Source of the DNA: Spirochaetales bacterium
Lineage (GTDB): Bacteria > Spirochaetota > Spirochaetia > Treponematales > UBA12059
Reading direction: 5' to 3'
Assembly: GCA_016926955.1 (NCBI GenBank)
Contig: JAFGNN010000035.1
Location: 1-55,484 of the forward strand
DNA: 55,484 bases
Part shown: piece after piece, positions 11,695-15,776 of the stretch
Layout: each line of letters starts with the position of its first letter
How positions within the stretch are numbered: the stretch's first letter is position 1
The notes under the pieces: generated by a model
What the model was told of the DNA's origin: nothing
What the model saw: the letters and a program-made list of their open reading frames with translations, nothing else
Database searches by the model: none
Made by a program: the position numbers and the translations under genes

Positions 11695-13008
11695 CTACCG
11701 CGAACCCTGGGTGCGCTGCTTCCGCGTGCTCGTGTCCTTGTTCGCGAGGCGCTTGCCGCGCTCGAGTCCTTGCGGCTCCAACGCGTGCTCGCTCTTGTCG
11801 AGGAGGCGCGCGACCCCGCAGCACGAGCTGAGCTGCGGATCGGTGTCGCAGATCGGGCATTTGCCGCAATCCTCGACGTAGCGGGTCGGCTCGTCGTAGG
11901 TGGTGATGACGCCCTCGTAATTGCGGAGCACCACGCGCTTCTCGTTGGAGGTGATCAGGTAGTTCGGCATGACCGGCGTCTTTCCGCCGCCGCCGGGCGC
12001 GTCGATGACGAAGGTCGGCACCGCCATTCCCGAGGTGTGCCCACGGAGGTTCTCGATGATCTCGATGCCCTTCGACACGGTGGTGCGGAAGTGGCCGATG
12101 CCGCGAGAGAGGTCGCACTGGTAGATGTAGTACGGCTTGACGCGGATGGCCAGAAGCTTCTGCACGAGCTTCTTCATCAGCACGGGGCAGTCGTTCACGT
12201 CGCGGAGCAGCACGCTCTGGTTCCCCAGCGGAATGCCCGCGTCCGCGAGCTTGCGGCAGGCCTCGCGCGACTCGGCCGTGATCTCCTTCGGGTGGTTGAA
12301 GTGCGTATTGAGGTAGATCGGGTGGTATTTCTTGAGCATGTTCACCAAATCGTCGGTGACGCGCATCGGCATGACCACCGGGACGCGCGAGCCGATGCGG
12401 ATGATCTCGACGTGCGGAATGGCGCGGATTTTGGCGATGATGCGCTCGAGTTTCTCGTCGGAGAGCACGAGCGGGTCGCCGCCGGATATGAGCACGTCGC
12501 GCACCACCGGAGTTTTGCGGATATACTCGACCGCGGCGTCGATGTGCTCGTCGGTCATGTGCACGTCCTCGAAGCCCACCAGGCGCCTGCGAGTGCAGTG
12601 GCGGCAGTTCATCGAGCAGATGTTTGTGACGAGGAGCAGCACGCGGTCGGGGTAGCGGTGCGTGAGCCCCGGCACCGGGCTGTCGACGTCTTCGTGCAGG
12701 GGGTCGTCCTGGTCGCCGGCCTCGTCGCGCGTCTCGGGCAGGCGCGGAATCGCCTGCAGGCGGACCGGGCAGCCGGGGTTGGCAGCGTCTATGAGGCTGG
12801 CGTAGTACGGCGTGATGGCCATGCGGAAGCGCTCGAGCACCTTCGTGATGTCCGCCTTCTCCGCGTCGGAGAGCGGGATGACCTTCGAGAGCGTCTCGAC
12901 GTCCTTGATGTCGTTGCGCATCTGCCAGTGCCAGTCGTTCCACTCCTCCGGCGTCACGTCCTTCCAGAGCGGTATCTTCCGGTAATCGTACGAATCATAA
13001 GCGTGCAT
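11695..13008 (-). CDS. kamA: Lysine 2,3-aminomutase (radical SAM)
   Basis: KamA converts L-lysine to L-beta-lysine, the first step of the pathway, using SAM, a [4Fe-4S] cluster and PLP. The 437-residue protein has the radical-SAM cluster motif C131-SMN-C135-RH-C138 and the PLP lysine K343 in PGGGGKTPVMPNY. The C-terminal cysteines (CGKCPIC, then CC) are those that bind structural zinc in the family. Length is normal, with a short basic tail rich in K, R and T. The ATG has AAGGAG 7 nt upstream. A short inverted-repeat element lies immediately upstream of this Shine-Dalgarno site. The related glutamate or arginine mutases are less likely given the surrounding pathway genes. Confidence 0.96.
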   Translation of the reverse strand: MHAYDSYDYRKIPLWKDVTPEEWNDWHWQMRNDIKDVETLSKVIPLSDAEKADITKVLERFRMAITPYYASLIDAANPGCPVRLQAIPRLPETRDEAGDQDDPLHEDVDSPVPGLTHRYPDRVLLLVTNICSMNCRHCTRRRLVGFEDVHMTDEHIDAAVEYIRKTPVVRDVLISGGDPLVLSDEKLERIIAKIRAIPHVEIIRIGSRVPVVMPMRVTDDLVNMLKKYHPIYLNTHFNHPKEITAESREACRKLADAGIPLGNQSVLLRDVNDCPVLMKKLVQKLLAIRVKPYYIYQCDLSRGIGHFRTTVSKGIEIIENLRGHTSGMAVPTFVIDAPGGGGKTPVMPNYLITSNEKRVVLRNYEGVITTYDEPTRYVEDCGKCPICDTDPQLSSCCGVARLLDKSEHALEPQGLERGKRLANKDTSTRKQRTQGSR

Positions 13009-13026: not shown

Positions 13027-13147
13027 ACCACGGAGTCACGGAGACACGGAGGAAGGAGGGAGAAGAAATCGTCGAGGTACGGGAAATTCCAAATCCATTT
13101 CCCGATATTTCTCCCTTTTCACTCCCACACTCCGTGCCTCCGTGGTT
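13027..13147. repeat. Gene-less inverted-repeat element between kce and kamA
   Basis: The left arm, starting ACCACGGAGTCACGGAG (13027), is matched by the inverted right arm CTCCGTGCCTCCGTGGT (13130-13146) with one mismatch. Inside, the GGGAGAAGAAAT region pairs with ATATTTCTCCC, and GGGAAAT (13081-13087) pairs with ATTTCCC (13097-13103). The whole 120-nt unit can therefore fold as one long hairpin. It ends next to the kce stop on one side and just before the kamA Shine-Dalgarno on the other. Its arms match those of the GxxExxY element at 13995-14473. It looks like a non-autonomous, MITE-like relative. Confidence 0.8.
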
Positions 13148-13148
13148 T

Positions 13149-13973
13149 CTATTTCTTCAGTTTCAGGTACGCCCGGACCTCGGCCGGGGTGGCGGGGGCC
13201 AGGGCGGCTTCGCGGGCGAGCCGGGCGGCCCGCTCGACGAGCTGGGCGTTCGACTCCGCGAGCACTCCCTTCGAATAATAGACGTTGTCCTCGAAGCCCA
13301 CGCGGATCCAGCCGCCGCGCGCGATGGCCGCGTACTGGGCCGGCAGCGAGGCGCGGCCGATGCCCATCACGGTGTAGTCGGCGCCTTCCGGCATGGCCCG
13401 GCAGAACGAGTCGAGCGCGTCGAGGCTGAAGGGCACCGCGCCCGGCACGTTGAGCACGAAGCCGTAGTGGTAGGGCGGCTCGAGGAGTCCTTCCTTCACG
13501 AGGATGCGGCTCGCGTGCACGTGCCCCAGGTCGAAGCACTCGAGGGTCGGCCTCACCTTGCGCGCCTTGAATTCCTTCGCGAAGGCGCGCATCACCGGCA
13601 GGGTGTTGACGATGTACTCGTCGCCGAAATTGACCGTGCCGCAGTCGAGGCTGGCCATCTCGGGCTCGAGCTCGATGACGGGCCTGAGGCGCTCGTCCGC
13701 CGTGTCGCCCACCGCGCCGCCCGTGGTTATCTCCACGACGATGTCGGTGCGCGCCCTGATCATCTCGATGGCCTTGCGGAACACCTTCGGGTCCTGCGTC
13801 GGCTTCCCGTTCTCGTCGCGGACGTGCAGGTGCAATATCGCCGCGCCCGCCTCGCGGCAGGCCACGGCGGTGTCGGCGATCTCCTCCGCCGTGATCGGCA
13901 ATGCCGGCTGCAGCTGCTTGGAGGTCTCCGCCCCCGTGCACGCGCAGGTGATGACTATCTTTCCCTCAAGCAT
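13149..13973 (-). CDS. kce: 3-keto-5-aminohexanoate cleavage enzyme (BKACE family)
   Basis: Kce condenses 3-keto-5-aminohexanoate with acetyl-CoA and cleaves it to L-3-aminobutyryl-CoA and acetoacetate. The 274-residue protein matches the usual BKACE length. The zinc ligands are H48 and H50 (ILHLHVRDENG) and E228 (GFEDN). The early motif VITCACTGAETSK and GGAVGDTADERL fit the family. The ATG at 13973 is chosen because GGAG lies 6 nt upstream; the longer frame reads back into a repeat element. BKACE enzymes have varied substrates, but the neighbouring kam and kdd genes make this assignment strong. It is flanked by two related inverted-repeat elements. Confidence 0.93.
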   Translation of the reverse strand: MLEGKIVITCACTGAETSKQLQPALPITAEEIADTAVACREAGAAILHLHVRDENGKPTQDPKVFRKAIEMIRARTDIVVEITTGGAVGDTADERLRPVIELEPEMASLDCGTVNFGDEYIVNTLPVMRAFAKEFKARKVRPTLECFDLGHVHASRILVKEGLLEPPYHYGFVLNVPGAVPFSLDALDSFCRAMPEGADYTVMGIGRASLPAQYAAIARGGWIRVGFEDNVYYSKGVLAESNAQLVERAARLAREAALAPATPAEVRAYLKLKK

Positions 13974-14020
13974 ATGGACTCCTTCACGAGATTGAACCAC
14001 GGAGACACGGAGGCACGGAG

Positions 14021-14041
14021 CGAGGAGCGAGGAGCGAGGAG
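14021..14041 (+). repeat. Triple CGAGGAG tandem repeat
   Basis: Three exact 7-bp CGAGGAG units follow directly after the left terminal repeat of the GxxExxY cassette. This kind of array is prone to slippage and lies outside any coding sequence. Confidence 0.85.
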
Positions 14042-14050
14042 GGAGGCGGA

Positions 14051-14431
14051 TCAAAGGGAAAACCGCCTGAGGCCATCTCTGAGCAAGGCGCTTTTGAAAT
14101 TGAAGAGCAAGCCGATTCGCCATCCGCCGAGCTTCATATACGACAGGAGCTGGGCTTCATGGACAGGCAGGATCGCTTCGACGGTCTTGAGTTCGATGAC
14201 GACCTTGCCTTCCACGACCAGATCAGCCCGGAAGGATCCGGAAAGCGACACGCCTTTGTAGGCAACCCGAACTCCGACCTGACTGACGCAAGCCAACCCC
14301 GCGTTCGCCAATTCCAGACCAAGCGCTTCCTCGTACACCGACTCGAGCAATCCGGGACCGAGCTCCCGGTGAACCTCGATAGCGCATCGGATGATGCGCT
14401 CCGTGAGTTCCTCCTCCCTCAGTTTCCCCAC
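14051..14431 (-). CDS. GxxExxY-family protein (PD-(D/E)xK-like nuclease fold)
   Basis: The 126-residue protein shows the naming motif G27-L-L-E30-S-V-Y33. It also has a PD-(D/E)xK-like core: D70 in SFRADLVVEGK, then E80-L-K82 in VVIELKTVEAI. Those residues are the metal-binding set of many DNA nucleases, though no activity is established for this family. The GTG at 14431 has GGAGG 6 nt upstream, just inside the right terminal repeat. The gene is the sole cargo of the inverted-repeat cassette at 13995-14473. It has no evident role in lysine metabolism and probably arrived with the repeats. An alternative is a selfish or stability gene. Confidence 0.85.
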   Translation of the reverse strand: MGKLREEELTERIIRCAIEVHRELGPGLLESVYEEALGLELANAGLACVSQVGVRVAYKGVSLSGSFRADLVVEGKVVIELKTVEAILPVHEAQLLSYMKLGGWRIGLLFNFKSALLRDGLRRFSL

Positions 14432-14483
14432 TCTTCCTCCCTCTTCCCTCCGTGCCTCCGTGCCTCTGTGGTTTCTTGATCTT

Positions 14484-15776
14484 CTACTTCCCCGCCGGGA
14501 ACCTGGCCATGGTGAGCTCGAGGGATTCCTCGATGGCGGACAGGGCTTTCTGCAGGTCCGCGTCGGTGTGGCGGTGGGCGATGTACCAGTGGTGGAAGGG
14601 CTGTATGAACAGGCCCCGCCGGATGGTCTGCGTGTAGAAGTACTCGCGCCGCGCCTTGTATGCCTTCTCGCCGGGGGTGCCCGCGTCCTCGCCGGGGCCG
14701 CGGTCGAAGGTCAGGAAGGGCATGGGCGGGATGCCCGACACCGTGCCCGGAAGCCCCGAGCGTTCGACGATGCCGCGCAGGTCCGCGAGGAACTTCGTGC
14801 CGCGCTTCCAGATCGACTCCGGCACGTCCTCGCGCACGAGTATCTCGAGGGTCTTGAGGGACGCCACCATCTCGAGGCTGTTCGGGAAGAAGGTCGACGA
14901 GACGAAGACCTTGGACTCGCACACCTGCATGATCTCGCGCTTGCCGGCCACACAGCTGATGGCGTAGCCGTTCGCCATGGCCTTGCCGAAGGTGCCCAGG
15001 TCGGGCGTGACGCCGTAGCGCTCCTGCGCGCCGCCCAGGGAGGCGCGGAAACCGGTGCGGATCTCGTCGAAGACGAGCACCGCCCCGTGCGCGTGGGCGA
15101 GCTCCTTGACGCCCTCGAGGTAGGCCTTCGTCGGCTCCTCGACCGGCTTCGCGAGCGGGTGCCCGACCGGCGTGATGATGACGCAGGCCACCTTGCCCTT
15201 GTGCGCTTCCAGCTTCGCCTCAAGCGACTCGAGCGAGCCGTACTCGAACTCGTCGGTCAGCGCGAGGGTCGAAGCGGGCACGCCGCCGTGGTTCTCGACG
15301 CACCAGTCGTGCCAGCCGTGGTAGCCGCAGCGGAGCACCACCTCGCGGTCCGTGTAGCCGCGCGCGATGCGCAATGCCAAGGTCGTGGCGTCGGAGCCGG
15401 TCTTGACCGGAATCACCTGCTCGGCGCAGGGCACCAGGTCGACGACGCGGCGCTCGAGCTCGTTCTGGGCCGGCTGGACCAGGCTGAAGCAGAAGCCGCG
15501 CTCGTCCATCTGGCGCTTCACGGCCTCGTTCACTTCCTTTTCGTCGTAGCCGAGGATGATCGGCCCGTAGGCGCAGAGCATGTCGATGTAGTCGTTGCCG
15601 TCCACGTCGACGATGTGCCCGCCGTAACCCCGGTCGATGAAGATCGGGTACTCGCCCTGCACGAAGTTGTAGGGCCTGCGGATGCCCATGACGCCGCCCG
15701 GGGAAAGGCGCTTCGCCTCCTCGAACATGGCCATGGATTTGTCGAGCTTCAGCTTCGGGAATTCCTTCGCCGCCAT
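14484..15776 (-). CDS. Class III PLP aminotransferase, glutamate-1-semialdehyde aminomutase-like
   Basis: The 430-residue protein has the class III fold. The PLP lysine is K265 in DLGTFGKAMANG, the aspartate contacting the pyridine nitrogen is D237 in VLVFDEIRTGF, and phosphate contacts lie near TGSDATTLALR (126-136). Such enzymes transfer an amino group from an omega- or beta-amino acid or shift it within a molecule. It lies between kdd and kce, and Kal ammonia-lyase is absent here. It may therefore handle 3-aminobutyrate or another pathway amine; this is inference. It is unlikely to be HemL given the operon. The ATG at 15776 is preceded by GGTGG; the open frame upstream is GC-rich, structured and not protein-like. 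Confidence 0.86.
   Translation of the reverse strand: MAAKEFPKLKLDKSMAMFEEAKRLSPGGVMGIRRPYNFVQGEYPIFIDRGYGGHIVDVDGNDYIDMLCAYGPIILGYDEKEVNEAVKRQMDERGFCFSLVQPAQNELERRVVDLVPCAEQVIPVKTGSDATTLALRIARGYTDREVVLRCGYHGWHDWCVENHGGVPASTLALTDEFEYGSLESLEAKLEAHKGKVACVIITPVGHPLAKPVEEPTKAYLEGVKELAHAHGAVLVFDEIRTGFRASLGGAQERYGVTPDLGTFGKAMANGYAISCVAGKREIMQVCESKVFVSSTFFPNSLEMVASLKTLEILVREDVPESIWKRGTKFLADLRGIVERSGLPGTVSGIPPMPFLTFDRGPGEDAGTPGEKAYKARREYFYTQTIRRGLFIQPFHHWYIAHRHTDADLQKALSAIEESLELTMARFPAGK

Follow-up and report, generated by a model that had tools for sequence, protein, structure and literature searches.

A small gene of the GxxExxY family lies between two genes of a metabolic operon in a Spirochaetales bacterium (contig JAFGNN010000035.1; the whole stretch of 55,484 nucleotides that was analysed is called the window), enclosed by inverted copies of a short DNA word. 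How did a gene come to sit between such repeats, and does its own protein have a part in placing it there? An earlier note, made from the sequence alone, saw in this locus a possible mobile unit whose only protein could be the nuclease that acts on its own ends. This interpretation is partly supported by the data presented here; that the family is a mobile element with the nuclease gene as its only gene is well supported.

The cassette within the lysine-fermentation operon

The cassette was found exactly at the coordinates that the earlier note had given (13995-14473), with two inverted arms and a single GxxExxY ORF. The left arm (13995-14033, no strand assigned) has three CACGGAG units (13998-14004, 14006-14012, 14014-14020) and then a purine-rich tract; the right arm (14435-14473, likewise unstranded) has the units CTCCGTG (14448-14454), CTCCGTG (14456-14462) and CTCTGTG (14464-14470), and its inner purine-rich strand (GAGGGAGGAAGA) probably supplies the ribosome-binding site of the GxxExxY gene. 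The arms are 39 nt long and 87% complementary. Inverted CACGGAG ends, as described previously, are thus present, but they are no simple terminal repeat: each side is an array of three tandem 7-mers, with CACGGAG five times and CACAGAG once. Exactly one ORF lies between the arms, the GxxExxY gene (14051-14431, minus strand, GTG start, 126 amino acids), which encodes a predicted PD-(D/E)XK nuclease with the catalytic D, E and K present; this sole ORF was assigned to PDDEXK_3 and there is no transposase in the cassette, in agreement with the earlier reading.

The flanking genes encode a 3-keto-5-aminohexanoate cleavage enzyme-like protein of the BKACE family (KCE, 13149-13973, minus strand) and a class-III aminotransferase similar to glutamate-1-semialdehyde aminomutase (14484-15776, minus strand). 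Both are intact and encoded on the same strand, and the claim that the cassette fits between two operon genes without damaging either was correct. Together with the next gene, KamA (lysine 2,3-aminomutase, 11695-13008, minus strand), and KDD these neighbours form a lysine-fermentation operon.

Two features had been overlooked: the genome-wide repetition of the paired units, and a second, gene-less element of the same family between KCE and KamA (13027-13150, unstranded), with arms at 13028-13051 (three units) and 13130-13145 (two units) and a loop of about 75 bp. At up to three mismatches, the window has 15 occurrences of the paired unit (shuffle mean 5.1), and matches that are exact or have one mismatch are found exclusively at 13028-13145 and 13997-14471. 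As single-stranded DNA, the cassette has a folding z-score of -5.0 and the gene-less element one of -6.4.

The GxxExxY protein

In profile searches, the window protein matched only TIGR04256 (139.7 bits, cut-off 35, full length) and PF13366 (135.8 bits, cut-off 22): it is a clear member of this family, whose names carry no function. An AlphaFold2 model had a pLDDT of 94.2. The top Foldseek matches of this model were mostly nucleases, with SSO0001, which we take to be a Cas4-type nuclease, as the nearest and LHK-Exo also among them; scores were modest (best E-value 1.6e-3), and a sequence search of the PDB returned no convincing relative. Fold and conserved D...(E/D)xK residues together make the window protein a predicted PD-(D/E)XK nuclease. 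Among 144 family proteins, the catalytic D and K are present in all 144 and the E in 142, with a D in the other two; the G, E and Y of the GxxExxY motif are invariant. The dN/dS ratio of the gene was 0.06-0.11 in four diverged pairs, while synonymous sites were saturated in two other pairs and a value of 0.4 was obtained for one very close pair. These data indicate that the gene is under purifying selection, with the predicted active site intact.

A search of the open-licence literature returned nothing on GxxExxY function, repeats, mobility or arm words; the GxxExxY elements look like a kind of mobile DNA without earlier description.

Unit arrays flank GxxExxY genes in many phyla

Whether repeats surround most GxxExxY homologues had been set as a test beforehand. 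From GTDB genomes of many phyla 80 loci were picked by protein similarity alone, of which 78 were usable (one of these is a viral contig). An inverted-repeat score of at least 14 was reached in the flanks of 50 of the 78 loci, compared to 2 of 462 control positions on the same contigs. Ungapped scoring of inverted repeats misses degenerate arms and unit counting was therefore added: at least two inward-facing C[AG]CN[AG]AG (CRCNRAG) units on both sides were present at 54/76 loci and in 1/760 control windows (p ~ 1e-65), with a unit pattern that was derived from relatives and a first look at the GTDB loci and is thus not fully blind, and with controls that share contigs with the loci. Most homologues do have the repeats. 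The modal layout is three plus three units, with a unit spacing of 8, 9 or 10 bp, and most GTDB loci have a single stem that encloses the gene, while a few have a hairpin on either side.

In a variant layout (L102, L097, L074, L043 and L190), hairpins of inward and outward units flank the gene on one or both sides, which recalls the subterminal hairpins of single-strand transposons.

The arm word follows the protein

Proteins with the motif GxGLLE have units ending in RAG at 78 loci and in RAT at none, whereas proteins with GxGF(L/Q)E have units ending in RAT at 14 loci and in RAG at none; this tally leaves 48 loci unclassifiable, including 19 of the 33 loci of the F type, all F loci come from one phylum and the GLLE/GF(L/Q)E split was defined after examples had been viewed. 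Inside the RAG class, related proteins tend to have the same unit type: the protein tree shows 21 changes, against a mean of 27.1 after shuffling (0/200). For instance, proteins with the unit CACGAAG group together although they come from Planctomycetota, Sumerlaeota, Zetaproteobacteria and the phylum of the window; that related proteins of several phyla have this word in common argues against simple host composition. The word also varies among the relatives: ACAGGAT copies reach their maximum in genome G015 (49, control 0), the GxxExxY gene of which has ACAGGAT arms, and are absent from the genome of the window (G000).

The GxxExxY nuclease is likely the agent that acts on the arm units: cutting of the arms is predicted because word and protein covary and the catalytic residues are conserved.

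Most copies are gene-less hairpins

The genome of the window (3.38 Mb) has 201 paired-unit matches of CACGGAGNCACGGAG, compared to 29 for the reversed control, and carries one GxxExxY gene only. The gene-less copies that were examined are mostly hairpins of 90-210 bp, and such gene-less hairpins are the main element population. In the phylum of the window, 27 of 296 genomes have at least 15 matches of CRCRRAGNCRCRRAG; a GxxExxY gene is present in 17 of these 27 repeat-rich genomes, compared to 62 of all 296 (p = 6e-7). Genomes of the GTDB loci have up to 437 CACAGAG matches (control 37) and 152 CGCAAAG matches (control 1). Not every repeat-rich genome has the gene: none was found in G026, a 99% complete genome of the same order with 295 CRCRRAG-pair matches (control 46), and none in the repeat-rich genomes G168 and G253.

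Transposition of the gene with its arms in one genome

One genome of the window's phylum (G177) has five copies of 482-500 bp that are 90-97% identical, have sharp ends with the sequence CTGAC(A/T)TCTACCCACA and lie at unrelated sites, all five with the GxxExxY gene as sole ORF. They are flanked by direct repeats with a length of exactly 9 bp (9, 8, 7, 5 and 3 matches across the five copies): the agreement of the 9-bp flanks is 71%, compared to 28% when flanks are mispaired, and other lengths are at or near background. A sixth copy of 260 bp lacks most of the gene; its target duplication has 8/9 matches. In G177, the unit of gene and arms has thus transposed and has also given rise to a gene-deleted derivative. 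The protein belongs to the GF clade and the units are of the GAT type, with arms that did not reach the automatic threshold of the RAT class (L248). Gene copies in G100, G246 and G150 have no nucleotide similarity; recent duplicates thus come from G177 only. Target duplications were not found for 32 CACGGAG elements of G000 and were seen only in the G177 family.

We think it rather probable that the GxxExxY elements are widespread minimal mobile elements, the own nuclease of which recognises and cuts the arms and in this way drives the copying of the element itself and of gene-less copies. The element would consist of two inverted arrays, typically with three 7-letter units each, spaced at 8-10 bp, and one nuclease gene between them. 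GxxExxY would recognise the arm units, either as duplex or as extruded hairpin, and would cut there; this cutting would drive the copying of its own element and, in trans, of gene-less derivatives, with joining through a partner or through repair. We know of no PD-(D/E)XK protein that transposes DNA by itself. A bolder version is possible and we put it forward tentatively: an element class found throughout the bacteria may have GxxExxY as its only recombination protein, which would read a 7-letter word present three times in each arm and move both its own element of about 500 bp and, in trans, the gene-less hairpins. Protein and word would co-evolve, and all elements of a genome would change their word together.

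A 9-bp target duplication is typical of DDE transposases, and its presence in G177 favours a different explanation that we consider unlikely: the arms and hairpins could be moved by an unrelated transposase (DDE or HUH type) whose gene lies elsewhere, and GxxExxY would be carried as cargo, or would help and profit from the ride. The repeat-rich genomes without the gene point in the same direction, as does a second, non-nuclease family (TIGR02436) that occupies similar elements. Against this, the unit goes with the protein clade: the RAG/RAT split has no exceptions, and inside the RAG class the match holds across phyla. Moreover, no element that combines the G177 ends with another gene was found when 394 kb of G177 were scanned.

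TIGR02436 proteins are four-helix bundles of the type found in 23S rRNA intervening sequences, an unrelated, non-nuclease fold. Their genes resemble the window cassette in being small ORFs inside inverted arrays of short tandem units (at 10 of 17 loci, L142-L158) and differ in the unit class. This parallel architecture strengthens the general plan, yet it also calls for caution: a small ORF between unit arrays is not by itself proof that this ORF encodes the mobility enzyme. We had considered TIGR02436 as an alternative cargo of GxxExxY-type arms and rejected this, as the family has its own arm class. The array words are GGTGAGG, GTGAATA, TAGCAGG, AATTACA and GTGGACA, with units of 7-8 bp (for example L143, L145, L147, L150 and L155).

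Comparison with known systems

REPINs with their RAYT genes (REP-associated tyrosine transposases) consist of hairpin repeats with many gene-less copies and usually one repeat-flanked gene (PMC3116915). The GxxExxY elements share with these the short inverted repeats, the intergenic hairpins, the many gene-less copies and a repeat type that tracks the protein type, but have a PD-(D/E)XK enzyme instead of an HUH/Y1 transposase, arms that are tandem 7-mer arrays with 8-10 bp spacing and, in one family, a 9-bp duplication. The GTAG/CGTC tag of REPIN/RAYT was not seen in the G000 elements inspected, nor in the outside consensus. CGTC repeats of REP studies are apparently without a dedicated transposase (PMC3733652). 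By analogy, the logic of the GxxExxY elements appears similar to that of RAYT/REPIN, with an unrelated enzyme.

With DDE insertion sequences and MITEs the elements have in common terminal inverted repeats, one gene, in the G177 family a target duplication (none was detected at the 32 G000 elements) and an internally deleted derivative; they differ in the lack of a DDE transposase, in the nuclease of about 126 amino acids and in arms made of a repeated word that varies with the protein. Within the PD-(D/E)XK superfamily, homing endonucleases and TnsA-type nucleases also act in mobile DNA. The homing enzymes sit in introns or inteins, whereas the window gene lies between intact genes and interrupts no host gene; TnsA requires TnsB and partners, and there is no partner inside the window element.

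The window locus in relatives

The cassette junction was compared between relatives: the element is present with an intact or contig-truncated gene in G000, G002, G003 and G012 and in broken form in G008 and G011; G010 has a gene-less ACAGGAT element, the congener G001 a short spacer and G009 nothing. The cassette is thus not constant at its locus, another test set beforehand: it is absent from G009, G001 and other genera. Clean empty sites, which the earlier note had named as support for mobility, are present opposite G000 elements in G001 and in other genera. The GxxExxY genes of the window's host family form one supported group in the tree, indicating that the window cassette has long been resident and has undergone losses, and is not a new arrival. 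The mobile unit that had been proposed for this locus therefore stands in part: mobility of gene plus arms is direct in G177, but the cassette of the window itself is old in its host family and no fresh insertion. The gap between KCE and KamA contains CACGGAG, CACAGAG, CGCGGAG or GTGGACG elements in relatives (L159-L173); in five genomes it is empty, with a length of 2-25 bp.

Sixteen CACGGAG sites of G000 could be mapped to G001 (for example C39:18050-18173 and C26:9132-9265), and in six of these the same gap has an element with another word (CGCCGAG, CGCGGAG or CGCAGAG), compared to 4 of 794 control positions, which include coding DNA; among the remaining sites, two have the same word and three are short or empty. 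The boundaries of the different-word elements almost coincide by eye. This suggests either that certain gaps are used again or that elements undergo replacement or rewriting at their site. Rewriting would be expected if the nuclease cuts existing units and repair copies another element in, as in homing or gene conversion, without jumps to new targets, and further features fit with this: related cassettes of the KCE locus differ in their unit while the six units within one cassette mostly agree, and there are nested elements (G010). As an explanation of the whole family we nevertheless judge it improbable, given the insertions with duplications at new sites in G177 and the clean empty sites; insertion may instead favour the same permissive gaps, and coding DNA is included in the control positions.

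Two further observations concern these gaps. The GTGGACG element in the KCE-KamA gap of G010 fits the TIGR02436 class. A second hairpin family of about 65-75 bp (GCGTCGCTTCGCTCCGCTTTCG...GCGCGC...CCTCATCC) nests in arms and is present or absent between genomes: it was seen in the KCE-KamA gap of G002 (L160), at L264 compared to G001 C11 at about 367 kb, at L004 and at L025.

Host hairpins or defence

The elements are intergenic and fold well, and REP-like hairpins can act in RNA (PMC3733652), but that they are terminators or regulatory hairpins of the host, with the nuclease gene an incidental neighbour, is very improbable given the two-sided flanking that is specific to one gene family across phyla, the covariation of word and protein and the transposed copies with target duplications. 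The reading to which we give least credence is that of a defence or addiction module, in which the arms would serve as protected or regulatory sites: PD-(D/E)XK nucleases are frequent in defence and there is weak Cas4-like similarity (E = 0.011), but PADLOC has no family better than E = 0.01 (only Cas4 models, 0.011 and 0.038), a partner gene is absent inside the element, and a match was found in none of 50,697 phage records and in 7 of 72,556 plasmid records. The E. coli genomes searched gave no match.

Implications

The reading that we prefer, in which the GxxExxY nuclease acts on the arms of its own element, would, if true, explain a class of intergenic hairpin repeats that was seen in genomes of many phyla (the words CACRGAG, CGCRAAG and ACAGGAT and their relatives). 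It would provide a function for a nuclease family that is named yet uncharacterised, and minimal mobile elements would gain a type that is based on a PD-(D/E)XK enzyme. Since word and protein are strictly paired, the recognition of DNA by the protein is directly testable.
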